Part shown: in pieces, positions 33,884 through 46,707 of the stretch
Numbering within the stretch: the first letter of the stretch is position 1
Layout of the letters: each line of letters opens with the position of its first letter
From: Armatimonadota bacterium
GTDB taxonomy: Bacteria; Sysuimicrobiota; Sysuimicrobiia; Sysuimicrobiales; Sysuimicrobiaceae
Length of the DNA stretch: 64,000 nucleotides
Reading direction: 5' to 3'
Assembly: GCA_031460175.1 (NCBI GenBank)
Contig: JAVKGW010000002.1
Location: 124,001-188,000, forward strand
Position numbers and translations under genes: made by a program
Notes under the pieces: model-generated
The model's input: only the letters and a program-made list of their open reading frames with translations
Told to the model about the DNA's origin: nothing
The model's database searches: none

Positions 33884-34896
33884 CCCCGCATCCCCATCGG
33901 GTATCCGTGGTGGGCCAGGAGCTCCAGCACCTTCCGGGCACTCTCCTCCGGCGGCTCCCGGTCCGTGTCGAGCACGAGGTCCGGGGCTTCGGGAGGCTCG
34001 TACGGATCATCCAGTCCCGTGAAGTTCGGGATCTCGCTCCGCAGGGCCCGGGCGTAGAGTCCTTTTGGATCCCGCGCGATGAGCACCTCGAGCGGGCAGC
34101 GCACGTAGACTTCGAGGAAGTCGCCGATGCGTCTCCGGGCCTCCTCCCGGGCCTCCCGGTACGGGGAGACCAGGGCCACCAGGACCACCACACCGTGGCG
34201 GACCAGGAGCTCCGCCACGTATGCCACCCGCCGGATGTTCTCGAGCCGGTCCTCCCGGCTGAACCCGAGGCCTCTGGAGAAGTGCTGGCGCACCACGTCC
34301 CCATCCAGGATCTCCACGGGATGGCCTTCCCGCTGCAGACGGTCCGCCACCTGGTGCGCGATGGTGGTCTTGCCGGATCCGGGAAGTCCCGTGAGCCACA
34401 CGCATAGGCCCCGGCGCGAAGGGGTGTTTCCGCTCCCTTCCACGCTCACGCTTTCCACCTGCACGCCGTCCGCCCGCACGGCCAGGTTGAGCCCGATGCC
34501 GTCGGCCCGGAGGTTGAGGGTGAAGTGGCCCAGGGTCCGCATCTCCACCCGCACGGACTCCAGCCGCACGCCGCGCAGGGCCCGCAGGGCCCGGTTTACC
34601 TCCTCGACCTGAGCTTGCAGGGCCTGACCCCGGGGCGTGCGCAAAAGCATCGCCGTCCAGAGGCGTTCCCCCTCCGCATGGAGCCGAGCCCGGGCCCGGC
34701 CCGTCTGCAGCACCATGACCGCAAGCCCTTCCAGCAGGTCCACGAGGTCCGGCGGGACTTCCCCCGCGCGGGCGTGCTCCACGAGCCGCAGCATCTGGGA
34801 TCGCTGGGGCTCCCGAACGGCCCGGCCCAGGGCCTCCGCCTCTTCCACCACCAGCCGGGCCTCTTCCTCCGTAAGGGGGATGCGGACTTCGGTCAT
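33880..34896 (-). CDS. cysC: adenylylsulfate kinase with extra N-terminal domain
   Basis: This 338-residue protein is a two-part fusion. Residues 160-338 form APS kinase: P-loop GLPGSGKTT at 170-178, ILDGDVVRQHFSRGLGFS, ENIRRVAYVAELL and DPKGLYARA; it phosphorylates APS to PAPS. Residues 1-160 match no family I recognise: a helical, acidic first part (to about residue 110) and then a strand-rich part (SVRVEMRTLGHFTLNLRADG). Ordinary bacterial CysC is about 200 residues. The ATG at 34896 overlaps the cysH stop. PAPS is not needed if CysH uses APS directly, so the product may feed sulfotransferases or the domain may add another function. Confidence 0.9.
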   Translation of the reverse strand: MTEVRIPLTEEEARLVVEEAEALGRAVREPQRSQMLRLVEHARAGEVPPDLVDLLEGLAVMVLQTGRARARLHAEGERLWTAMLLRTPRGQALQAQVEEVNRALRALRGVRLESVRVEMRTLGHFTLNLRADGIGLNLAVRADGVQVESVSVEGSGNTPSRRGLCVWLTGLPGSGKTTIAHQVADRLQREGHPVEILDGDVVRQHFSRGLGFSREDRLENIRRVAYVAELLVRHGVVVLVALVSPYREAREEARRRIGDFLEVYVRCPLEVLIARDPKGLYARALRSEIPNFTGLDDPYEPPEAPDLVLDTDREPPEESARKVLELLAHHGYPMGMRG

Positions 34897-35711
34897 TCCG
34901 CCCGCCCTCCTGCGGGTTCCAGGGCGGTGCCGTGGGCCTCCTTGAGGATGGCATGGGCCTCGTGCTCGAACCCGCCCGTCTCGATGGGGCAGTGGATGCC
35001 GCACTCCTTGGGCGCGCCCACCTCCCACCACCACCGGCCCGCCCGGTCGTCCTCCCCGGGCTGGATGGGCCGGGTGCAGGGATCGCAGCCGATGCTGGTG
35101 TAGCCCCCCTCGTAGAGGGGATGTACGGGGACCCCGTGGGTCGTGAGGTACTCCCACACTTCCTCCTTGGTCCAGTCCGCGAGCGGGTTCACCTTCACGA
35201 TGCCGTCGTGGTCGTGGTCCAGCTCTACCTTGCGGATGTTGGCCCGGGAGGCCCACTGCTCCCGGCGCAGCCCCGTGATCCACGCATCCAACCCCTCCAG
35301 GGCCCGCACCAGAGGCCGCACTTTCCGGACCTGGCAGCACAGCAGCCGCAGGGGCACGGACCGGTAGAAGAGGTTCACACCGTGCCGCCGCACCATGGCC
35401 TCCACCTCCCGGTAGTCCGGGAAGAGCACCTCGAACCGCGCCTGCGGGTAGTGCTCCCGCACCTGGTCCATGAAGGCATAGGTGGCCTGCGGGAGTCGGC
35501 CCGTGTCCACGGTGATCACCCGCACGTCCGGCCGGATGCGGGCCGCCATGTCGAGGACGGCCATCCCCTCCGCCTGGAAGGCGGTGACCACCGCCACGCC
35601 GTCCCCGAAGGTCTCGAGGGCCCAGGCGATCACCTCCTGCGGGGAGCGGTCGTCCAGCTCGACGGCGATCTCGCCGATCTCCAGGTCATCGAAGCTTAGC
35701 TGCCGCGGCAT
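34893..35711 (-). CDS. cysH: adenylylsulfate (APS) reductase, thioredoxin-dependent
   Basis: This 272-residue enzyme reduces APS (or PAPS) to sulfite. The cysteine pairs CC at 125-126 and CxxC at 209-212 mark the 4Fe-4S type, which prefers APS. The catalytic cysteine lies in KECGIHC at 236-241. The PP-loop-like segment VVTAFQAEGMAVLDMA and the Arg-rich TGLRREQWASRA are also seen. The protein lies between the sulfite reductase and the APS kinase in the operon. Confidence 0.92.
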   Translation of the reverse strand: MPRQLSFDDLEIGEIAVELDDRSPQEVIAWALETFGDGVAVVTAFQAEGMAVLDMAARIRPDVRVITVDTGRLPQATYAFMDQVREHYPQARFEVLFPDYREVEAMVRRHGVNLFYRSVPLRLLCCQVRKVRPLVRALEGLDAWITGLRREQWASRANIRKVELDHDHDGIVKVNPLADWTKEEVWEYLTTHGVPVHPLYEGGYTSIGCDPCTRPIQPGEDDRAGRWWWEVGAPKECGIHCPIETGGFEHEAHAILKEAHGTALEPAGGRAE

Positions 35712-35729: not shown

Positions 35730-37658
35730 TTATCCGCCCGAGAGGGCGGGCAGGATGGTGAGCTCCTGCCCGGGCCGGAGCGGAGTCTCAAGCCCCTGTA
35801 GTCCCCGGATGTCTTCCTCGTCCACGAAGAGGTTGATGGAGGGGTGGACCTGGCCGTCCGGGGTAAGGAGCTGGGCGGCCAGCTGTGGGAACTGCGCCTT
35901 CAGGATCTCCAGGGCCTCCCGCACCGTCTTCGCCTCCACCTCCACCCGGTCCGCGCCGTCCGTGAAGGGCAGGAACATGCCGGGGATGCGCACCACGGGC
36001 CGCCGGCAAGCCTCCTCCTGGGTGCGCTGGCCGAGCGCCATGGCCTGGAGGGCCTCGTCCGGATGGGCGTCCACGAAGTCCCGGAACCGGTAGCCCGGGC
36101 CGTGCTCCGCTCGCTCCCGCAGCCACGCCTCCACCAGGCGGCAGACCACCTCCGTGATCTGGTCCTCCGGGATGCGGCGCAGGATCGGCTTTCCGATGGC
36201 GGCCTTCGTCCCGAGCCCGCCCCGCAGGCATACATCGTAGGCTTCCACCCGCACGCCCTTGGTGGGGTGCTGGGTGGTGGTGCCCTGGAGCCCGATGTCC
36301 CCAACCCAGTGATGGGCGCAGGCGTGCGGGCATCCATCCGTGTAGATGCGCAGGTCCTCCACGGCCTCCCCGAACCGCTGCTCCAGCACCTCGAGGATCT
36401 CCCGCAGCTTCCCCTTGGTCTCCGCCACGGAGTAGTTGCAGAACTGGTGATCCGTGCAGGCGATGGACCGGCCGTAGAGCCTGTTGCGATCCGGGTCCAG
36501 CCCGATCCGCCGCAACCGCTCCACCACTCCCCCGACCGCACCTTCAGGCACGCCGGTGAGGATGATGTTCTGCATACGGGTAAAGCGCGCGTCCCCGCCG
36601 AACTCCCCGACGAGCTCGCCCAAGGCCACCAGCTGATCCCCCCGCACCCATCCCATGGGCACCGGGATCCCCACGTACACCAGCCCCTCCTGCTTCTGGG
36701 GGTGGATGCCGAGATGATCCGTGTCCCGCATGGGCGGCGGAGCGACACCGTCCTCCAATCTGCGGCCCAACCTCTCCTCCACCATGGCCCGCACGCCCTC
36801 CGGGCCGTAGTCGTCCACCAGGAACTTGATGCGGGCCTTGGCGCGACTCAGGCGGTAGCGGAGGTTGTGTTGCCAGGTGTCCGTGATGGCCCGCAGGACC
36901 TCGATGACGCCTTCGATGGGTTCTGCGGGCACGAACACGCCGAGGTCCCGGGAGATCCGGGGCGTGGCGGAGAGGCCGCCGCCCACCCGCACGGCGAATC
37001 CCGGCCGGCCGTCCTTGAGCACGCCCACGAGGGCCACGTCGTGGATCTCCGGGGCGTTGCACTGGGCGGGGCAGGCGCTGATGGTGTACTTGTGCTTGCG
37101 GGGGAGGTTGCTGTACGCACGGTTCCCATAGAAGAAGCGGGCCACCGCGGCCACCACGGGCTGCACGTCGAACAGCTCCTCCCGGTCCACACCCGCCACG
37201 GGGCAGCTCGTGACGTTGCGCACCGTGTCCCCCTCCCCGCCCACGGTGGTGAGGCCACTCGCCTGGATCTCCTGGAGCACCTCCGGCAGCTGATCCAGCC
37301 GAACCCAGTGGAGCTGGATCCCCTGGCGTGTGGTGAGCTCCCCGTAGTTGCGGCCGTACCGCTGGGAGATCCGGCCCACGGCGATGAGCTGCTCGGGTGC
37401 GATCCGGCCGCCCGGGACCTTGATGCGCACCATGAAGGTGCCCACCTTGGGCTTGTCGTGCGTGAGGCCCCACCAGTTGAGCCGTACGATGTCCTCTTCC
37501 GGGACGGCCTCGTACCCCCGCGCGATGAGCTCCGGGAGCTCGTGGACGATGTCGAGGGGGAACTTCTCCTGCTTGAGGCGCTCGATGGAGTTGCGCTTGA
37601 GGACGAGCTCCCAGGTGACCTCCGCCGTCTGTCCCGTACCGGTGACCTGTACTGCCAT
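35730..37658 (-). CDS. siroheme sulfite reductase fused to a MoaD/ThiS-like sulfur carrier
   Basis: This 642-residue protein has two parts. Residues 1-550 are a ferredoxin-type sulfite/nitrite reductase with duplicated halves; the 4Fe-4S/siroheme ligands are C401, C407, C443 and C447 (C-x5-C-x35-C-x3-C). Residues 555-642 form a beta-grasp domain like MoaD, ThiS and CysO: VREALEILKAQFPQL, then INLFVDEEDIRGLQGLETPL, and a free C-terminal Gly-Gly after ILPALS. Such carriers become thiocarboxylates at that end, so the fusion would join sulfide production to its acceptor. Operon context (sat, cysH, cysC) favours sulfite over nitrite. No E1-like activating gene or Mec+ protease gene is seen nearby. 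Confidence 0.9.
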   Translation of the reverse strand: MAVQVTGTGQTAEVTWELVLKRNSIERLKQEKFPLDIVHELPELIARGYEAVPEEDIVRLNWWGLTHDKPKVGTFMVRIKVPGGRIAPEQLIAVGRISQRYGRNYGELTTRQGIQLHWVRLDQLPEVLQEIQASGLTTVGGEGDTVRNVTSCPVAGVDREELFDVQPVVAAVARFFYGNRAYSNLPRKHKYTISACPAQCNAPEIHDVALVGVLKDGRPGFAVRVGGGLSATPRISRDLGVFVPAEPIEGVIEVLRAITDTWQHNLRYRLSRAKARIKFLVDDYGPEGVRAMVEERLGRRLEDGVAPPPMRDTDHLGIHPQKQEGLVYVGIPVPMGWVRGDQLVALGELVGEFGGDARFTRMQNIILTGVPEGAVGGVVERLRRIGLDPDRNRLYGRSIACTDHQFCNYSVAETKGKLREILEVLEQRFGEAVEDLRIYTDGCPHACAHHWVGDIGLQGTTTQHPTKGVRVEAYDVCLRGGLGTKAAIGKPILRRIPEDQITEVVCRLVEAWLRERAEHGPGYRFRDFVDAHPDEALQAMALGQRTQEEACRRPVVRIPGMFLPFTDGADRVEVEAKTVREALEILKAQFPQLAAQLLTPDGQVHPSINLFVDEEDIRGLQGLETPLRPGQELTILPALSGG

Positions 37659-37671
37659 GGTTTCCCTCCCC

Positions 37672-38865
37672 TCACCGCACGCCCTGTGTGGGTTGTTCCT
37701 GGACTCCGGAAAAGTGCTCCATGAGGATCCGGGCCACCTCCGGCCGCATCACCTGCGGCGGCGGCAGCTGTCCCGAACGCAGGAGCTCCCGCACCCAGGT
37801 GCCGCTGGGGTTCACCCGCGCCTCCGGCGGGTGCGGGCAGCTGCGTTCCGTGGCCATGCCGTCGCACCGCGAGCAGTAGAAGGCCTCCCCGAAAAAGAGC
37901 GGCACGATTCCGATGGCCTGCGGATCGAACCGCTCGAAGATGCGGTGGGCCGCGTACGGCTCGTAGAACCCGCCCACCCCCGCGTGATCCCGGCCGATGA
38001 GGATGTGGGTGCACCCGTAGTTCTTGCGCACGAGCGCATGGAAGACCGCCTCCCGCGGTCCCGCGTAGCGCATGGCCGCAGGGAAGACCGCGAGAAGCAC
38101 CCGATCCCGGGGGTAGTACTGGGCCAGGAGCACCTCGTAGGTGCGGAGCCGCACCGCGGCCGGAAGATCATCCCCCTTGGTCTCGCCCACCAGCGGATGC
38201 AGCAGCAATCCATCCGTGACCTCCAGGGCCACTTTCTGCAGGTACTCGTGGGCCCGGTGGATGGGATTGCGGGTCTGGAACGCGGTCACCGTGCGCCATC
38301 CCGCCCGCGCGAACAGAGCCCGGGTCTGGGCCGGATCCAGCTCAAGTCCCGGGAACGCGGGCGGCGGCCGGTCCACCAGCCAAACCGCTCCGCCCGCAAG
38401 CCACCGCGACTCCCGCAAAAGCCTCGCCACGCCCGGATGCCGGAGGTCCGTGGTGCCGAAGACGAGCCGCGCTTCCTGCTCCGGGTCCCGGCGGTAGATC
38501 TCCGCCACCTCCATCACCGCCAGGAGCGTTGGACCTTGGAGGGCCAGCCGATCGCCTGGGCTGATCCGGCGCGCGAGCTCCTCCGGAACCGGCAGGGTGA
38601 CGGGCAGGGTCCAGGGAAGGCCATCGGGCAAGTGCATCTCGTGCACCACGGAGCGGTACGCTTCCTGCGTCATGAAGCCCCGCAGGGGACTATAGGCCCC
38701 CGTGGCAATGAGAACCGCGTCCGCGGCCTCCTTGGGCGCAAGAAGCACCGTTGGAAGGTGGCGGGCCTCTTCCCGAAGGGCCTGCGCGAGCTCTCCATGT
38801 ACAACACCTTGGACCAACTCTCCGCCGTGTGGTGCGATCACGGATCCACCTCCAGGTACGGCCAT
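37672..38865 (-). CDS. sat: sulfate adenylyltransferase (ATP sulfurylase)
   Basis: This 397-residue enzyme activates sulfate with ATP to form APS, the first step of assimilation. Active-site motifs are present: FQTRNPIHRAHEYLQK and LIGRDHAGVGGFYEPYAA. A C-terminal CSRCDGMATERSC segment may bind zinc, as in thermophile enzymes. It is the dissimilatory/plant-like homo-oligomeric Sat type and has no APS kinase domain attached. It is the first protein-coding gene of the operon after the leader peptide, with GGGAGGG seven bases before its ATG. Confidence 0.95.
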   Translation of the reverse strand: MAVPGGGSVIAPHGGELVQGVVHGELAQALREEARHLPTVLLAPKEAADAVLIATGAYSPLRGFMTQEAYRSVVHEMHLPDGLPWTLPVTLPVPEELARRISPGDRLALQGPTLLAVMEVAEIYRRDPEQEARLVFGTTDLRHPGVARLLRESRWLAGGAVWLVDRPPPAFPGLELDPAQTRALFARAGWRTVTAFQTRNPIHRAHEYLQKVALEVTDGLLLHPLVGETKGDDLPAAVRLRTYEVLLAQYYPRDRVLLAVFPAAMRYAGPREAVFHALVRKNYGCTHILIGRDHAGVGGFYEPYAAHRIFERFDPQAIGIVPLFFGEAFYCSRCDGMATERSCPHPPEARVNPSGTWVRELLRSGQLPPPQVMRPEVARILMEHFSGVQEQPTQGVR

Positions 38866-38955
38866 ATCCCTCCCGGCCCGGGGGCAAACCCGCCCCCCCC
38901 GGCCGCGGGGGTGGCAAATCCTATTCGGAGAACTCAGGGGGAATCGCGGAAGGGA
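38866..38955 (-). promoter_or_regulatory. sat leader, GC-rich hairpin region hiding the ribosome binding site
   Basis: After the leader-peptide stop, the minus strand carries CCACCCCCGCGGCCGGGGGGGGCGGG, then GTTTG, then CCCCCGGGCCGGGAGGG just before the sat start. Several mutually exclusive hairpins can form. The G-run may pair with the first C-run, or with the second C-run next to the ribosome binding site GGGAGGG. No U-tract is seen, so control by exposing or hiding the ribosome binding site, or by Rho, is more likely than an intrinsic terminator. Confidence 0.45.
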
Positions 38956-39051
38956 TCAGGCGCCCGCCGACCGACGGGCACAGACCGCCTTCCGCCCAGG
39001 ACAGATGCACTGGCAGCGGGAGAGGCAGAGATCAACCCGTCGCATGCCCAT
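38956..39051 (-). CDS. cysteine-rich leader peptide upstream of sat
   Basis: A 31-codon reading frame starts at ATG 39051 (or ATG 39045) and ends TGA at 38956. The core reads RRVDLCLSRCQCICPGRK, followed by one more Cys, so six of 31 codons are cysteine. The sat promoter -10 box ends 10 bases before the ATG, so the peptide would be translated from an almost leaderless mRNA. The core resembles the RRHVDLC-type leader peptides annotated before sulfur-assimilation genes in actinobacteria. Ribosome slowing at the Cys codons when cysteine is scarce could change folding of the following hairpins and raise sat expression. This is inference from sequence and position. Confidence 0.75.
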   Translation of the reverse strand: MGMRRVDLCLSRCQCICPGRKAVCARRSAGA

Positions 39052-39061
39052 GGCTAGGTTT

Positions 39062-39090
39062 ACTGTACGCAAGGGCCCGCATCCCGTCAA
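39062..39090 (-). promoter_or_regulatory. promoter of the sulfate assimilation operon
   Basis: TTGACG (39090-39085), a 17-base spacer and TACAGT (39067-39062), close to the housekeeping sigma consensus. Transcription would start near 39055, a few bases before the leader-peptide ATG. Confidence 0.75.
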
Positions 39091-39115: not shown

Positions 39116-40510
39116 TTACCGGATCCCCACCCTTGCCCGGTACTGCCGTGCGGCCTCCGAGTACGGAGTGGGGCCTACCGTGGCGCGGATCTCCACCTGC
39201 GCGTGGCGCTCCACCGCCGGCTTCCGGGTTCCACCGCCCGCCTCTCCCCATACCACCGTGACCTGGGTGCCGGGCTGACTGTACCGAACGTCCACCACGC
39301 CCAGGGACAGCACGGCCCGCTCATTCGCACTGTACCCTGTGTACTTGGAGAACCCGATGACGTCTCCGTGCTCGTCCAGCACCTTGTCGTAGGGCCAGAC
39401 GGCGTAGTTCGCCAGGGGGAATTCCATATACTTCGCGCGCGCTCCCTTCTGAAAGAGCGTGCCGATGGCCCGAAGCACGTCTTCCGGATTCCACACCAAG
39501 GTCACCTTGGTCCTCCGGGGCTCTTTCGCCATCTCCTCCAGGGCCTTCCGTCCGACGAACTCGTGATCAAACCTCACGAGTCGCCCTGCCCCCAGGTCGA
39601 AGGGCGTCAGATAGTAATCCTCCACGTTTTTGGAGTCAAAGCTGCCTCCCAAAGATCCTGTGGCCTCGAAGCTGGTGGCGGGTAACCATTCCCGGTACCC
39701 TCTCAGGTCTTCTCCGGTGTAGATGGCCGGGAGGGCGGTAGAAATCCATCCGGATTCGAGGGTGTTTGTAGGATAGGCCCGGGTTCCCACCTGTCGGAGC
39801 CCGAACTCTTTTCCCGCCTCCAGGATGGCTTCCCGGACCTCCTCCCGTTCCTCCCATGGCCCGAAGATCTCGAGTCCCGCCACGCCCGCCATGCCGTGGT
39901 GCAGGGCCCGGACCCTCCGACCCGCGATGGTGATCCATCCCATGTGGAAGAACGGGATCTCCGGGAGGGGTCCTCCGTTCAGCTTCTCCAACAGCGAGAT
40001 CGCATTGGGCCCTTGGAGCTGGTACCGGTATACCTTCCGGCGCCCCCGTGGGTTCACCGCGCTCCGCTCGTCCCGTTCGAACTCTACCAGGTACCCGCCC
40101 TTCTCCCCATGGAACTGCACCCAGTTGTGGGCCATGGGGCGGCCCACCAGCTGCAGGAGCTCCGGTTCCAGGTAGAAGAGAACCGCATCCCCCACGATGT
40201 ACCCTCGCTCGTTGCAGACGTAGAGGTGTTTCGCCATCCCGGGCTCAAAGCCTCGAAAGCGATTTACCCCGAGGTGCTCAAGCAATTTGACCGCATCCGG
40301 ACCCCGGATGTAGAGGTCTTCCATGTGGTGCGTCTGGTCGAAGAAGGCCACCGTCTGCCGCCAGGATTCCTGTTCCTCGATCCAGTTCGTGAACTCCCGA
40401 GGCACGTTGACGAACACGTAGGCACCCGTCGAATTGTTCCGGAGGAAGTCTACAATGTTCCCGACAGACTTCACGATGTCCTCGAGTGTCCGATGGGTCC
40501 CTGCAGGCAT
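39116..40510 (-). CDS. GcvT-family aminomethyltransferase, LigM-like O-demethylase
   Basis: This 464-residue protein belongs to the folate-binding GcvT superfamily. The length and segments such as FFDQTHHMEDLYIRGPDAVK, YQLQGPNAISLLEKLNGG, HHGMAGVAGLEIFGPWEE and DLGAGRLVRFDHEFVGRKAL match the tetrahydrofolate-dependent LigM/DesA demethylases of vanillate and syringate. It would move a methyl from a methoxy-aromatic acid to tetrahydrofolate. The start at 40510 follows GGAGGTG. It is the last gene of the left arm of the aromatic regulon. Homovanillate is a plausible substrate because its product would be homoprotocatechuate. The substrate is inferred. Confidence 0.8.
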   Translation of the reverse strand: MPAGTHRTLEDIVKSVGNIVDFLRNNSTGAYVFVNVPREFTNWIEEQESWRQTVAFFDQTHHMEDLYIRGPDAVKLLEHLGVNRFRGFEPGMAKHLYVCNERGYIVGDAVLFYLEPELLQLVGRPMAHNWVQFHGEKGGYLVEFERDERSAVNPRGRRKVYRYQLQGPNAISLLEKLNGGPLPEIPFFHMGWITIAGRRVRALHHGMAGVAGLEIFGPWEEREEVREAILEAGKEFGLRQVGTRAYPTNTLESGWISTALPAIYTGEDLRGYREWLPATSFEATGSLGGSFDSKNVEDYYLTPFDLGAGRLVRFDHEFVGRKALEEMAKEPRRTKVTLVWNPEDVLRAIGTLFQKGARAKYMEFPLANYAVWPYDKVLDEHGDVIGFSKYTGYSANERAVLSLGVVDVRYSQPGTQVTVVWGEAGGGTRKPAVERHAQVEIRATVGPTPYSEAARQYRARVGIR

Positions 40511-40541
40511 CGCCTTCACCTCCGCATCGCCGTTTCTCCTT

Positions 40542-40937
40542 TCACCATTCGAGCCAATCCCGCAACGGTGCATTCCAGTCCGTGGGACCCGGGATCCGGA
40601 TCGAGATCTGCCAGGCACTCGCCCCCTTGTTCGCGCCATGCCAGTGCCAGGTTCCTGCCGGGATCACCACGATGTCGCCCGGCCCCACTGGCCGTCGCTC
40701 CGCCTCGGTGGCCACCACCCCTTCTCCCTCCATGAAAAAGAGGATCTGTTCGGTAGAGTGCACGTGCGGCCGGGTCCTGGCACCGTTCTCGAAGAACACC
40801 ACCACGAGCTCCATGCTGCCGGGCCCTGACGCCTCGTGGATGCGCTGCATCCGGACCGTCCCGCTGAAGGCCTCCGGCTGATCCGGCTCGTGCGCCCGGT
40901 GGGGATCCACCTTTGCCCAGGTTACGAGATGGTTCAT
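40542..40937 (-). CDS. cupin-domain protein in the aromatic regulon
   Basis: This 131-residue single cupin has the metal-binding pattern GARTRPHVHSTEQILFFMEG and a second motif GDIVVIPAGTWHWHG. The Met at 40937 follows GGAGAG. The gene overlaps the upstream dehydrogenase stop (ATGA). The role is unknown; small cupins in aromatic clusters can be isomerases, decarboxylases or accessory proteins. Confidence 0.8.
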   Translation of the reverse strand: MNHLVTWAKVDPHRAHEPDQPEAFSGTVRMQRIHEASGPGSMELVVVFFENGARTRPHVHSTEQILFFMEGEGVVATEAERRPVGPGDIVVIPAGTWHWHGANKGASAWQISIRIPGPTDWNAPLRDWLEW

Positions 40938-41869
40938 CGCTCTCCTCCTGACAGGGATGGGGAAACGTGTGAGTTCCACGACCGATACACCTCAGCGAGC
41001 ACCGCCACGTCTCGGCTCCCGTACCCCACGTTCGCCGCCATCCGGAGCACTTGCACCACGAGCCCGCACACCGGGGCCGTCATCCTCGCCTCCTCCGCCA
41101 TGTGAAGGAACAGCTCCACGTCCTTCCGCAACAGGCCCAGGGCGAACCCTGGCTCATATGAGCTCTGAAACGCCTCGCGTCCCAGATAGTTCAGGACCCA
41201 GCTCTGGGCGGTGCCGCTCCCCAGGATGTCCACCAGCATCCTCAGGGGAAGCCCATGGGCCATTCCGGTGAGGAGGACTTCCGTGGCTGCCACCATGGCG
41301 GCCGCCGCGGCCATGTTGTTGCACAGTTTGACCACCTGCCCGCTCCCCGAAGGCCCCACGTACACCACGCGAGACCCTAAGTGCTTGAGAAGGTGCCGGA
41401 CGCGCTCATAGGCGGGGTGCTCGCCGCCCACCATGATGGTGAGGGTCCCCCGCTCCGCGCCCTCCACCCCTCCGCTAACGGGCGCGTCCAGGGCGGCAAT
41501 GTCTCTCGCGGCGGCGGCGGCAGCCACCGCCCGGGCAGTCCCTGGGTCTGTCGTGCTGAAGTCCACCAGGATCGTCCCCGGACGCATGGCGTCCAGCACC
41601 CTCCCATCTCCCAGCACAACCTCCCGTACCGTCGCAGGATCCGGCAGGCTCAGGAGGACGAAGTCGGCCTCCTTCGCTGCATGTGCGGCCGAATCCGCAA
41701 CCCGGGCGCCTGCCTCCTTGAGGGCCTCTGTCGCCTCCCGTCGTCGGTCATACGCCCGGAGGGAACAGCCCGCGGCCAGCAGGCGGCGAGCCATCCGGCT
41801 TCCCATGTTCCCCACACCGATGAAGGCCACCTGTTCTTTGCTCGCCTCCCCGGCCCGTCTTGTCGTCAA
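40934..41869 (-). CDS. NAD(P)-dependent 3-hydroxyisobutyrate-dehydrogenase-like oxidoreductase
   Basis: This 311-residue beta-hydroxyacid dehydrogenase has the nucleotide-binding motif VAFIGVGNMGSRMARRLL, the substrate motif DAPVSGGVEGAERGTL and the catalytic lysine region GQVVKLCNNM. The family includes 3-hydroxyisobutyrate, tartronate semialdehyde and gamma-hydroxybutyrate dehydrogenases. Within this operon it may act on a C3 or C4 semialdehyde from ring cleavage, such as succinic or tartronic semialdehyde. That step is inferred. Confidence 0.83.
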   Translation of the reverse strand: MTTRRAGEASKEQVAFIGVGNMGSRMARRLLAAGCSLRAYDRRREATEALKEAGARVADSAAHAAKEADFVLLSLPDPATVREVVLGDGRVLDAMRPGTILVDFSTTDPGTARAVAAAAAARDIAALDAPVSGGVEGAERGTLTIMVGGEHPAYERVRHLLKHLGSRVVYVGPSGSGQVVKLCNNMAAAAAMVAATEVLLTGMAHGLPLRMLVDILGSGTAQSWVLNYLGREAFQSSYEPGFALGLLRKDVELFLHMAEEARMTAPVCGLVVQVLRMAANVGYGSRDVAVLAEVYRSWNSHVSPSLSGGER

Positions 41870-41885
41870 CGCGCTTCCCTCCGAT

Positions 41886-43092
41886 CTAGAACCGAACCCA
41901 CGTCCACTGGCCCCGGCGCACCTGAAGGATCACCATGGACCGCCGCGGGTCCAGACCCACATGGTCCCGGGGGCTAAAGTTGAAGACCCCTCCGATTCCC
42001 ACCAGGTTCTTGGTCCCGGCCTCGATCTCGTCCCGGATGGTCCGGCGAAGTTGTCGCAGGTCGGCGTTCCCAAATCCACGGGCCACCACTCGCTCCACCG
42101 CCTGGTGGAGGATGAGCATGGCATCGTACGCGTGGCCCCCGAAGGCACTTCGGGTTCCCGGACCGAACCGGCTTTCGTACCGGCGTATGTATTCCAGGAG
42201 GACCTTCCGCTGGGGATCGTTCACGTTCAGCTGCTCCGCCACCAGGATCTTTCCCGCGGAGATATAGGCTCCTTCCACCGTTGGCCCTCCCAGCTCCAGG
42301 AACGTCCGGTTCGCCACTCCCTGGCTCAGGTACAGGGAGAGCTGGCCGCCCAGGTCTCGCAGGTTTCGCACCACCACGTTTGCGGCGGGGGGTACAGCCC
42401 AGATCACCACGGCCTGCGGGTTTCTCGTGAGCACCCGAACCGCCTGGCTGCTGGCATCCGTGGCTCCATATGGGAAGTACTCCTTGGCCACCACCTCCAG
42501 CCCCCGCTGCGGGGCGAATGCATCCAGTTCTCGCTCCCCATCCTGCCCAAAGGCATCGTTCGTTCCCATGAAGGCCACCCGGCGGATCTTTAGCGTCTGC
42601 ATGTGGGCGGTGATCAGGTCCACGTTCATCCGTCCATCGTGCGCGGTCTTAAAGACCCAGAAGCGCTGATCCACAGGCTCCACGATGGCCCGGGCTGAGG
42701 CGAGGGAGATGGTCGGGATCCCTGCGTTCGTCACGGTGCTCAAGATGGCCAGGGTTTCCCGGGGAAGTGGTGCAGCAGATGATGGCCGCCGCCCGCTCCT
42801 CCTCGATGAGACGTCGGACTGCCACCACCGTTCGGGTCACGTCCGTCTCTCCATCCGTCACCACCCAGCGGATCCGCACCGCGCCTCCGCGCCCCTGTAC
42901 CCCCCCGAAGTCCGATTCATAGAGCTGCACCGTGTTCCGCTCCGGGACCCCCAGGGACGACGCAGGGCCCGTGATGTCCACCACCACCCCCACCACGATC
43001 TCCCGCACCTGCCCCATGCCCACCGGGGCCACTCCGAAGACCACGCACAGAGCTCCGAAGAGGAGCATCCATCTCGGACCGACAAACCGCAT
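41886..43092 (-). pseudogene. branched-chain-type ABC substrate-binding protein, frameshifted
   Basis: The N-terminal frame (from 43092) has a signal peptide and a Leu/Ile/Val-binding start: REIVVGVVVDITGPASSLGV, then AAAIICCTTSP. Family sequence then continues in another frame from about 42750 (LSTVTNAGIPTISLASARAI) to 41886. One surplus base around 42755-42765, in or near GGGAAACCC, separates the two. The intact protein would be about 401 residues, normal for the family. It would be the binding protein for the Liv-type importer on the right arm. The lesion may be a true inactivation or a sequence error. Confidence 0.82.
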
Positions 43093-43128
43093 TCTACCCC
43101 CTCCCTTCCCAAACGGATCCCATCACGT

Positions 43129-44616
43129 TCAATTCACGGTTCTGGATTCCTCCGGGGGCTCCGGAGCGAATCGTTCCGCCTCCTCCAGAAAGGCCCGCAC
43201 CCGCTCCATGTATGGCCTCCGGTCATACGTCTGGAACATGGCACTCGCCATCCGCACGGGATCACAGAAGAAGCACTCGTACAGCACCTGACGCCCACCG
43301 ACGGCGCTCAGAGCGATGTCCCAAGCCAGTCGGAAAAGCCGAACTCGGTCTGTGGCCTCGGCCCGGGCGGCCTGGCAGTAGCGCCGGATCAGAGGAGCCA
43401 TGGGTCCTTCGAGATCCCCCCGCGTGGGAATGGCCATGAATCCACTGGCGCCCAGCTGCTGCAGGATCTCCACGAGCCTCGGATACGTCCGGACGTAAAG
43501 GTTCCGTGCCGCATTGAGCGGAGGCCAGGCGGGCACCAGCGCTCCCCACCGGTTGGGCTGGGCTTCCACCTCACTCGTTCGCAGGAAGGCCCGCATGGCC
43601 TGCAGGACGATGATGATCTCCGCGATCTTCTTGTGGACGTGCTGGTAGGGCTCGATGGCGATGGTCTCCACGGCCAGGGAAGCAACTCCGAGAATGAACT
43701 TCGTTTTCGCCACGTTCTTCGTGACCATCTGATGGGCCATGAAGGCTACTGCTCCGGTCTCCGCAAACGCCTGGTTACAGCGCTCCACGTCCCGGAGGAG
43801 GAAGACTCGCTCCCACGGAACGAACACATCCTTGAAGATCACCACGGCGTCCATCTCCTCGAACCGAGCGCTGAGGAGATGGTCGGAAGTCGGGCGCCCG
43901 TACCAGAAGCTTTCCCGACACTGGAACCGCAGTCCCGGAGCATCGCATGGCACCGCCACCGCGAAGGCATACGGGGCGTCCTCCATGCCCGCCCGCAGGA
44001 GGGTGGAGGGGAACAACAGGAGCTCGTCTGCTACGGGGAGTGTGGCCAGCATCCGGGCTCCCCGGAGCACGATGCCCCTTGTGTTCTCCTTCACGATCCG
44101 CGCGGCGAGATAAGGGTCCGCCTGCTGGGAAGGCCCCACGGATCGGTTCACCTGGGGATGGATCAGGGTATGCGTCAAGCAGAGATCGTTCTCCCGCGCG
44201 TATTCATAGTACCGCAGGACGTTCTCGGCAAAGCGGGAATCGCTCACGGCGAAGTATGCGGCAGCTGACGCGAACCCCACGAGGGCACGGTTGAGGTAAT
44301 CGAGGGTGCGGCCCATGAACTCGCCGGAAAAGTCCGCCCACCGCTTCATCATCCGGCGGATGCGGACGAGGTCCTCCTGCGTCTTGGGGATCAGGAAGGA
44401 CAGCCCCACCCGCTCCCCAGAGGTCGGCGAGGGGTATGTCATCTCCTCCCGCAGATCGGGGTAATGCTGTAGGTCGTACAGGGCCCCGATGCTCCGGGTG
44501 ATCCTCGCGAAGACGGAATGTTCTGTGGGATCCTCCACCCGTTGGCCCGCATACCAGAGCTCCCGCGGCCGCCGCCGAAGTCCTTCCAGGTATTCCGCCC
44601 CCGCCCGCGCCGGCAA
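43129..44616 (-). CDS. hpaB: 4-hydroxyphenylacetate 3-monooxygenase (HpaB family)
   Basis: This 495-residue FADH2-dependent oxygenase hydroxylates a phenol ortho to its OH. Seen: SGERVGLSFLIPKTQEDLVR, the conserved DLCLTHTLIHPQVNRS stretch, and DHLLSARFEEMDAVVIFKDV followed by VPWERVFLL. It would convert 4-hydroxyphenylacetate to homoprotocatechuate, the ring-fission substrate. The reductase partner HpaC is not in the window. The start at 44616 is TTG behind a G-rich stretch, so it could be shifted a little. Confidence 0.83.
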   Translation of the reverse strand: MPARAGAEYLEGLRRRPRELWYAGQRVEDPTEHSVFARITRSIGALYDLQHYPDLREEMTYPSPTSGERVGLSFLIPKTQEDLVRIRRMMKRWADFSGEFMGRTLDYLNRALVGFASAAAYFAVSDSRFAENVLRYYEYARENDLCLTHTLIHPQVNRSVGPSQQADPYLAARIVKENTRGIVLRGARMLATLPVADELLLFPSTLLRAGMEDAPYAFAVAVPCDAPGLRFQCRESFWYGRPTSDHLLSARFEEMDAVVIFKDVFVPWERVFLLRDVERCNQAFAETGAVAFMAHQMVTKNVAKTKFILGVASLAVETIAIEPYQHVHKKIAEIIIVLQAMRAFLRTSEVEAQPNRWGALVPAWPPLNAARNLYVRTYPRLVEILQQLGASGFMAIPTRGDLEGPMAPLIRRYCQAARAEATDRVRLFRLAWDIALSAVGGRQVLYECFFCDPVRMASAMFQTYDRRPYMERVRAFLEEAERFAPEPPEESRTVN

Positions 44617-44639
44617 CCCCCCTCACCCCCTGGTTTGCC

Positions 44640-45941
44640 CTACGCCCGCATGCCCATCCGGGGAATGGCGTGTCCTCCCAGGGCCACGTGGATCGTCTGG
44701 TATTCACAGTAGAACTCGAAGGAGAACTCGCCTCCCTCACGTCCTATCCCGCTGTGCTTCATCCCTCCGAAGGGAGTTCGCAGGTCCCGCACGTTGTGGG
44801 AGTTCACCCAGACCATGCCCGCCTCCAGGGCCTGCGCGATCCGGTGGGCCCGGTGCACTTCCCGGGTCCACAGGTAGGCCGCGAGTCCGTACCGTACCCC
44901 GTTGGCGATGCGGAGGGCCTCCTCCTCCTCAAACGGAATCACCACCACGGGCCCGAAGATCTCCTCCCGGGCCACCCGCATCTCCGGCCGTACGTCCACG
45001 ATGAGGGTTGGCTGGAGGTAGTTGCCGTGGGACAGGTTCTCCGGACGATCTCCTCCCACGAGCACCGTGGCGCCCTCCGCACGGGCGAGCTCCACGTACC
45101 CACGCACCCGCTGCCAGTGTTCCGGGTGGATCAGGGGACCCACCTCGGTGGCAGGGTCAAACGGATCCCCCACCCGCAGTGCCTGCACCCGGGCCGCGAA
45201 CCGCTCCAGGAACGTATCGTACACCTGCCGTTCCACCAGCAGCCGGGATCCGGAGGTGCACCGCTCCCCGTTGAGGGAGTAGCCCATGAAGACCGCAGCG
45301 TCCAGGGCACGATCCAGGTCGGCATCCGCGAACACGATGGTGGGGTTCTTTCCCCCTAGTTCCATGGAGCACCGTTTCAAGGTGGGCGCTGCGTTCCGGA
45401 GGATCTCCACGCCCGTGCGGCTCTCCCCGGTGAAGGAGATCAAGGAGGCCTGCGGGTGCGCCACCAGGGCCGCGCCCGCGGTCTCCCCGTAGCCCTGCAC
45501 CACGTTGGACACCCCGGGCGGCAGATCTGCCTCCTGGATGATCTCCGCGAGCTTCATGTAGGTGATGCCCAGGATCCGGGACGCCATCTCCGCGAAGAAG
45601 AAGTTCTCGGCAGCGCGCGGGATCTGAGTGCCTCCCGCCTGTGAGATCGGCGTCCCCGTGTCCAGGACCTCTAGGACCCCGATCTCCTCCGCGTGCTTCA
45701 GGATCAGCTCGCCCACCCGACGCAGGTACCCCGCACGCTCCTCCGCCCGCATCCGCGGCCAGGGGCCCTCGTGGAAGGCCTTCCAGGCGGCCTGCACCGC
45801 ACGGTCCACATCTACCTCGTTTCCCTCCGCCACCTCCGTGATCACCTCGTTTGTCGTAGGGTTCAGGGTGGAGAAGGTGCGTCCGGATTGTGACTCCACA
45901 AACTCGTTTCCGATGAAGTGCCGCACGGGCCCGACCCGCAT
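44640..45941 (-). CDS. hpaE: HpaE-like aldehyde dehydrogenase with internal deletion
   Basis: This 433-residue protein resembles 5-carboxymethyl-2-hydroxymuconate-semialdehyde dehydrogenase. It keeps the general-base Glu194 (MELGGKNP), the catalytic Cys228 (GERCTSGS) and the C-terminal VRDLRTPFGGMKHSGIGREGG motif. A stretch of about 55-58 residues is missing between residue 128 (LGITY) and 129 (MKLAEIIQEADLPPGV). That stretch normally carries the PWN motif with the catalytic Asn and the Lys that binds NAD. The family is usually 490-510 residues. The reading frame is intact, but the enzyme should be inactive. Junction at about 45557. Confidence 0.85.
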   Translation of the reverse strand: MRVGPVRHFIGNEFVESQSGRTFSTLNPTTNEVITEVAEGNEVDVDRAVQAAWKAFHEGPWPRMRAEERAGYLRRVGELILKHAEEIGVLEVLDTGTPISQAGGTQIPRAAENFFFAEMASRILGITYMKLAEIIQEADLPPGVSNVVQGYGETAGAALVAHPQASLISFTGESRTGVEILRNAAPTLKRCSMELGGKNPTIVFADADLDRALDAAVFMGYSLNGERCTSGSRLLVERQVYDTFLERFAARVQALRVGDPFDPATEVGPLIHPEHWQRVRGYVELARAEGATVLVGGDRPENLSHGNYLQPTLIVDVRPEMRVAREEIFGPVVVIPFEEEEALRIANGVRYGLAAYLWTREVHRAHRIAQALEAGMVWVNSHNVRDLRTPFGGMKHSGIGREGGEFSFEFYCEYQTIHVALGGHAIPRMGMRA

Positions 45942-45951
45942 GTCTCTCCTC

Positions 45952-46707
45952 TCATGCGTAGGGGCCGATCTCCTCGCCCACCACGGGGTTCTCCAGGGCC
46001 CCGATCCCCTCGATCTCCAGCCGCATCACGTCCCCGGGCCGCACCGGACTGATCCCCCGGGGCGTCCCCGTCAGGATCAGGTCCCCCGGCTCCAGGGTCA
46101 TGAAGGAGGAGACCCAGGCGATCAGCCGAGGAACCTTCCAGAGCATCTCTCGGGTGTTCCCCCGTTGCCGGAGTTCCCCGTTCACGTACACCCGCATCTC
46201 GAGGTCGTGAGGATCCTCGATCTCCCCTTCCACCGACCAGGGCCCCACAGGGCCGAAAGTGTCGTATCCCTTGGCCCGGACGGGAGGCCGGTAGAAGTTC
46301 CCCACGAAGTCGCGGGCCGTGATGTCGTTGGCAATGGTGTACCCCTGAACGACCCGCAGGGCCTCTTCGGGCTGCACGTTGCGGCACCGCCGGCCGATGA
46401 CCACCGCCAGCTCCACCTCGTAGTGCAGGTACTCAACCCCCCGGGGGTAGACCACCGGGGCCCGGTGTCCCACGAGGCAGGAGAGGGGCTTGAAGAACAG
46501 GGGCGGCTCGTCCGGAATTCGCATGCCCAACTCCGCGGCGTGCTCCGGGTAGTTCAGGGCAACTCCGAGGACCTTCGTGGGGCTCACGGGCGGAAGCCAG
46601 ACCACACGATCTGGATCGTACCCGCGTCCTCCCGCATCGTAGAGCGCCCCTTCCCTGAAGGTTCCCTCGTGGACGGCGCCTTCCGCGGCGAACCGCACGC
46701 GCTTCAT
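45952..46707 (-). CDS. fumarylacetoacetate-hydrolase-family enzyme (HpaG-like)
   Basis: This 251-residue FAH-fold protein has GVALNYPEHAAELG, LHYEVELAVVIGRR with the metal-binding Glu residues, YTIANDITARDFV and the C-terminal LEPGDLILTGTPRGI. In homoprotocatechuate pathways such enzymes (HpaG) decarboxylate and isomerise the ring-cleavage product. Only one copy is present, while enteric HpaG is a fused pair. It overlaps the DapA-like gene start. Confidence 0.87.
   Translation of the reverse strand: MKRVRFAAEGAVHEGTFREGALYDAGGRGYDPDRVVWLPPVSPTKVLGVALNYPEHAAELGMRIPDEPPLFFKPLSCLVGHRAPVVYPRGVEYLHYEVELAVVIGRRCRNVQPEEALRVVQGYTIANDITARDFVGNFYRPPVRAKGYDTFGPVGPWSVEGEIEDPHDLEMRVYVNGELRQRGNTREMLWKVPRLIAWVSSFMTLEPGDLILTGTPRGISPVRPGDVMRLEIEGIGALENPVVGEEIGPYA

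Follow-up and report, generated by a model that had tools for sequence, protein, structure and literature searches.

A conserved CICP leader peptide and covarying hairpin ahead of sulfur genes: a probable family of cysteine-responsive translational attenuators

Analysis of a 64,000-nt stretch of DNA (the window) revealed, ahead of its sulfate assimilation operon, a short reading frame whose Cys-Ile-Cys-Pro (CICP) core recurs before sulfur genes across the phylum. Judged by comparison between genomes, the CICP leader probably belongs to a phylum-wide family of translational attenuators that act in cis and respond to cysteine, and it is most likely a cysteine sensor that controls a whole set of sulfur genes. 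The comparisons support a conserved frame with marks of translation, a conserved core, a fixed spacing from this core to a covarying hairpin, and sulfur-related targets; beyond this, we infer that the signal is cysteine, in which direction the control works, and that the controlled step is translation and not transcription. The family signature is [Q/E]-C-I-C-P-x-R together with the hairpin arm GCGRRGG, which begins 14 nt after the first nucleotide of the first Cys codon. A preliminary description had proposed that a near-leaderless Cys leader responds to the supply of cysteine by switching the folding before sat; the comparative evidence upholds this core idea, and the details have had to be revised. 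The leader region of the window comprises the following features.

39062-39090, minus strand: promoter, assigned from sequence only, with -35 TTGACG at 39085-39090, a 17-nt spacer and -10 TACAGT at 39062-39067
38956-39051, minus strand: leader peptide ORF of 31 codons, encoding MGMRRVDLCLSRCQCICPGRKAVCARRSAGA, with its TGA stop at 38956-38958
38992-39012, minus strand: conserved core CAG TGC ATC TGT CCT GGG CGG (Q-C-I-C-P-G-R), found 64 times, in 31 of the 43 phylum genomes

The promoter had been described as TTGACG-17-TACAGT about 10 nt ahead of a 31-codon frame, and the window sequence bears this out: the leader ATG stands 10 nt past the -10 box, which makes the start near-leaderless, and both hexamers are identical in a same-genus relative (L002). 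The MGMRRVDLCLSRCQCICPGRKAVCARRSAGA frame contains five Cys codons rather than the six first claimed. All five are retained in L002, one of them changed from TGC to TGT, whereas the rest of the peptide differs between the two species of the genus by 11 non-synonymous and 3 synonymous codon changes. The conservation check proposed at the outset had a positive outcome: the frame and its Cys codons are kept in close relatives. Outside the core, the two species of the genus show no synonymous excess. Two features that had been regarded as key are not shared by the family. A high Cys count is not general, in that most members have only two Cys codons and the other sat leaders retain just the two of CICP; RRVDLC reads RWIDPC in the sister species and is absent elsewhere. 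Two near variants of the core also occur: L006 has CICL before sat, and L153 has CICR.

The 64 leaders were collected by a three-mismatch core search combined with a strict peptide pattern; they have stops nearby, and two matches in L116 were dropped as chance. The genome count (31 of 43) was made by hand from the match places. On its own, the strict pattern PR[QE]CICP occurs in 28 of the 43 phylum genomes, and the core search finds matches across the order; the reversed pattern gave no matches in either case. The 43 genomes sample a single order, and the phylum searched is probably Sysuimicrobiota (CSP1-3), which has one class and one order (PMC11604079). Three copies are present in the genome of the window, before sat, TusA (L169) and a MoeB-rhodanese gene (L168), and a search of this genome for further variant leaders found none that was convincing. 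Spread to other phyla was considered and rejected, as about 800 genomes gave chance-level matches only. The strict pattern was found in 2 of 301 genomes from the phylum of a Chloroflexi MAG, 0 of 296 from that of an Actinomycetota MAG and 2 of 201 from that of an Armatimonadota MAG, with all four matches inside or against longer reading frames; 74 diverse genomes likewise gave only chance matches, those inspected falling inside other genes. As judged from these comparisons, the leader frame is real and not a product of chance, with all five Cys codons kept in the same genus and the core recurring phylum-wide. A chance ORF without function, for which the missing synonymous excess outside the core in the two species of the genus might be cited, is hardly credible in the face of 64 instances, zero reversed-pattern controls, chance-level matches elsewhere and consistent sulfur targets; we consider it refuted by the recurrence before sulfur genes.

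Evidence for translation comes from the position of the start codons. Forty-eight leaders have a good promoter-like site; in 30 of them an ATG or GTG in the CICP frame lies 5-12 nt past the -10 box, while the other two frames have 1 and 0 such starts. This 30:1:0 frame bias behind -10 boxes supports translation from a leaderless or near-leaderless start as a putative family trait, although some members have longer 5' regions. It also weighs against a non-coding RNA element or protein-binding site in which the ORF is incidental. That explanation would account for the near-invariant nucleotides ATCTGTCC and GCGG, but it is very improbable given the frame bias, the fact that many members stop shortly past the core, and the lack of any Rfam covariance model match at the leader element. 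Variation in the flanking codons points the same way: at codons -2 (Pro), -1 (Arg) and +4 (Pro) it is mainly the third base that varies, with positions 1 and 2 largely fixed.

The core itself shows conservation that counting of Cys codons does not explain. The second CICP Cys codon (39001-39003 of the window, minus strand) is TGT in 64 of 64 leaders, against a TGC share of about 78% among Cys codons in the longest reading frames, and an intramolecular search for an RNA partner of TGCATCTGTCC that might explain the invariant TGT found no pairing above shuffles. This unexplained codon counts against the attenuator reading, as do the number of Cys codons (two are few for a starvation sensor) and the fixed Ile and Pro, which codon counting alone would not need. 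A rival reading is a nascent-peptide sensor, in which a ligand such as a thiol, a persulfide or a metal would make the CICP(x)R(R) peptide itself arrest the ribosome or let it go. The strict CICP with its fixed Ile and Pro, the PR ahead of it and the mostly only two Cys in 64 leaders fit this proposal, and there is a precedent in CruR, where copper acting via CXXC controls arrest at a RAPP motif (PMC9426467). Against it, the N-terminal part is variable, as the 11 non-synonymous and 3 synonymous differences attest, the residues past the core are explicable by the RNA arm, and conservation at the nucleotide level (TGT in 64/64) points beyond the peptide. Peptide sensing on its own is therefore distinctly unlikely, but the arrest-peptide reading stays alive because the invariant TGT and a recurrent pyrimidine tail (see below) lack an explanation. 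A bolder variant, which we regard as doubtful, makes CICP a dual peptide-and-codon sensor: an arrest peptide with an invariant UGU and fixed Ile and Pro that would sense cysteine or sulfane sulfur and govern the sulfur regulon of the phylum.

Downstream of the core, the attenuator reading draws on a conserved hairpin with two arms in the window.

38988-38995, minus strand: hairpin 5' arm GCGGAAGG, beginning 14 nt after the first nucleotide of the core's first Cys codon (Cys1)
38946-38953, minus strand: hairpin 3' arm CCTTCCGC, with the conserved pyrimidine tail GATTCCCC behind it; kept in L002

The GCGRRGG arm lies at the constant 14-nt distance in 63 of the 63 members that carry it; the sole member of the 64 without an arm is L184, whose frame stops right after CICP. 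Arm and partner covary (GCGGAGG/CCTCCGC, GCGGGGG/CCCCCGC, GCGAAGG/CCTTCGC and GCGGAAG/CTTCCGC). An exact downstream complement to a non-majority arm is found in 16 of 29 own loci, compared with 4% of loci with the majority arm GCGGAGG. When G-U pairs are allowed, the arm pairs in 63/63 loci, against a mean of 52.9 and a maximum of 58 when the downstream regions are dealt anew among loci, and 23.8 for shuffled sequences. The pairing signal peaks at offset 14, with 33 own loci versus a dealt mean of 20.0 and maximum of 25. For the window a long hairpin spanning 38946-38995 is predicted, with the arm at its base; the 176-nt region as a whole barely beats shuffles in folding (z -1.15). In L002 the 3' arm is kept, whereas the sequence further downstream diverges. 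The GC-rich hairpins at 38866-38910, originally proposed as the switch, do not occur in the sister species; they lie downstream of the conserved hairpin. A TTCC-like pyrimidine tail recurs directly behind the CCYYCGC 3' arm in family members (L111-L191).

The leader end is separated by 114 nt from the probable start of sat. The relevant genes and the probable ribosome binding site are listed here.

38846-38853, minus strand: probable sat Shine-Dalgarno (SD) sequence GGAGGTGG, at the same position relative to VIAPHGG/VVAPHGG in sat relatives
37672-38841, minus strand: sat (ATP sulfurylase; Pfam ATP-sulfurylase 1.4e-92, NCBIfam NF003166 1.7e-152)
35730-37658, minus strand: sulfite/nitrite reductase-type hemoprotein, operon gene 2 (Pfam NIR_SIR, NIR_SIR_ferr, ThiS)
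34893-35711, minus strand: cysH (APS/PAPS reductase; NCBIfam NF002537 3.4e-85)

The sat reading frame is open from ATG 38865, but the beginning VIAPHGGELVQ is common to all relatives, so the probable start is GTG 38841 with its SD sequence GGAGGTG. APS kinase, uroporphyrinogen-III synthase and probable siroheme-synthesis genes also lie downstream of the leader, which confirms the earlier assignment of the leader to a sulfate assimilation operon (sat, sulfite reductase, cysH, APS kinase, siroheme genes). At its C-terminus, the sulfite/nitrite reductase-type protein is fused to a ThiS/MoaD-like domain (a ubiquitin-like sulfur carrier) at residues ~570-642, a combination that seems unusual. On the other side of the leader, a cluster at 39116-46707 (minus strand) includes syringate/vanillate O-demethylase-like, HpaB and aldehyde dehydrogenase genes and resembles aromatic/O-demethylation catabolism.

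The cost of opening the SD sequence was predicted for 48 loci with a recognisable start. It is 3.74 kcal/mol with the ribosome at Cys1 versus 4.99 with the ribosome at the leader stop; opening is costlier at the stop in 25 of these loci and cheaper in 2, although P values for the family loci overstate certainty because the loci are phylogenetically related. Replacement of the arm by A7 made opening costlier in 27 loci and cheaper in 5, and replacement of random 7-mers had no such effect. Complementing the arm gave a larger effect than A7, but we rely on the A7 replacement because the complement of the arm itself resembles an anti-SD sequence. Individual loci vary. For sat in the window the predicted costs are 4.5 (stalled), 4.6 (stop) and 5.3 kcal/mol (A7), and the near absence of a change here counts against the attenuator reading; for the MoeB-rhodanese copy of the same genome (L168), the cost of 2.2 rises to 6.4 kcal/mol once the ribosome is at the stop. 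The SD switch is thus predicted to be weak for the sat gene of the window and strong for this MoeB-rhodanese copy.

A mechanism is proposed in which the short ORF, at or near the 5' end of the mRNA, would be translated, and a scarcity of charged tRNA-Cys would slow the ribosome at the first Cys codon of CICP. By the standard footprint, when Cys1 is in the A site the ribosome spans the 12 nt starting with this codon, so that its edge ends two nt short of the arm. With the leading edge halted there, GCGRRGG could pair with the downstream CCYYCGC, which would hold the pyrimidine-rich arm off the downstream SD sequence and allow translation of the sulfur gene. When cysteine is plentiful, the ribosome would reach the leader stop and cover the arm, leaving the 3' arm free to pair with the purine-rich SD sequence and switch the gene off. 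Activation at low cysteine would be sensible because the targets include sulfate assimilation, and the SD model predicts the same direction. Alternatively, the same Cys leader could act on transcription, with the ribosome position governing a downstream intrinsic or Rho-dependent terminator instead of SD access. The conserved pyrimidine tail behind the hairpin arm is compatible with this, L191 has a hairpin and TTTT between leader and gene, and Rho has been suggested for the mycobacterial cys leaders, which lack terminators (Seliverstov et al., PMC1262725). Inspection for trp-type features revealed alternative arm partners in several loci and a U-tract in L191, with none in the window. Control of transcription is nevertheless rather unlikely: a U-tract follows the hairpin in few loci as judged by inspection, a terminator made of the conserved hairpin would mean that stalling turns the genes off in starvation, and the arm effect on predicted SD opening is specific.

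The genes behind the leaders comprise sat, sulfite reductase, rhodanese, TusA, DUF4395, ThiF/MoeB-rhodanese, NMT1-type (ABC) binding proteins, a RimK-like ATP-grasp protein, a Cys/Met PLP enzyme, OsmC and SBP_bac_5. Translational control by cysteine explains this set imperfectly, since DUF4395, OsmC and the peptide-binding protein are not plainly involved in cysteine biosynthesis. The RimK-like ATP-grasp protein (GVVYEHPEWF...) follows the leader in one family of the phylum (L156-L158, L164, L165, L167, L184, L187 and L189) and may be a thiol-related ligase. Related genomes also contain other regulatory RNAs: a T-box near a guanidine-I riboswitch just under threshold (L130:928-1290, minus strand) and a fluoride riboswitch (L119:375-439, minus strand). 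If translational attenuation by the CICP leader is correct, cysteine control by leaderless leader peptides reaches well beyond Actinobacteria and takes a form specific to this phylum, in which many sulfur genes are preceded by the same four fixed core residues and a common hairpin design. It would also predict a sulfur regulon that includes the poorly understood DUF4395 and RimK-like ATP-grasp proteins in hardly cultivated organisms, and the 64 natural variants provide a test set for a single codon (UGU) and ribosome-edge geometry as switch determinants.

Several known systems resemble the CICP leader in part. The actinobacterial 'putative leader peptide' cis_reg_atten (NF042934, RRHVDL type) is also a short leader, and its core is similar to the RRVDLC of the window, but this motif is not conserved even within the genus and there is no profile match. 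We therefore rejected an actinobacterial-type leader; the resemblance to RRHVDLC leaders looks coincidental, given the loss of the motif in the sister species and its absence elsewhere. None of five family members matched an NCBIfam leader model, NF042934 included, even with E allowed up to 10, whereas two actinobacterial-type peptides used as positive controls matched NF042934 at 2.9e-9 and 6.8e-10; the models of the mycobacterial Cys-rich leader families Ms4527A/Ms5788A (NF042936/NF042933) gave no match either. The copper uORF CruR/DUF2946 (PMC9426467) is likewise a regulatory uORF with a Cys motif at the head of an operon but, compared by description, differs in having CXXC instead of CIC, a full small protein and a copper signal. 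Candidate leaders of cys operons in Mycobacterium, P. acnes and B. longum (Seliverstov 2005, PMC1262725) share Cys codons near the stop before cys genes; conserved hairpins were not found there, while the CICP family has one.

Mycobacterial polycysteine leaderless sORF attenuators (Canestrari et al. 2020), as presented in the papers that cite them (PMC9094748, PMC9031893), are leaderless short ORFs that contain Cys codons and precede sulfur genes, among them cysA2 (PMC4633059); for these ORFs, attenuation through ribosome speed has been proposed, as it is here for CICP. The leaderless short ORF before sulfur genes recurs in the CICP family, but a run of contiguous Cys codons does not, as most members have only the two non-adjacent Cys of CICP. 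The CICP leader further differs in its fixed core, invariant TGT, covarying hairpin at fixed spacing and occurrence in another phylum. Our literature search, with many subscription papers outside its reach, did not find a CICP leader. The best reading is that it works like the mycobacterial Cys leaders yet constitutes a separate, undescribed family.
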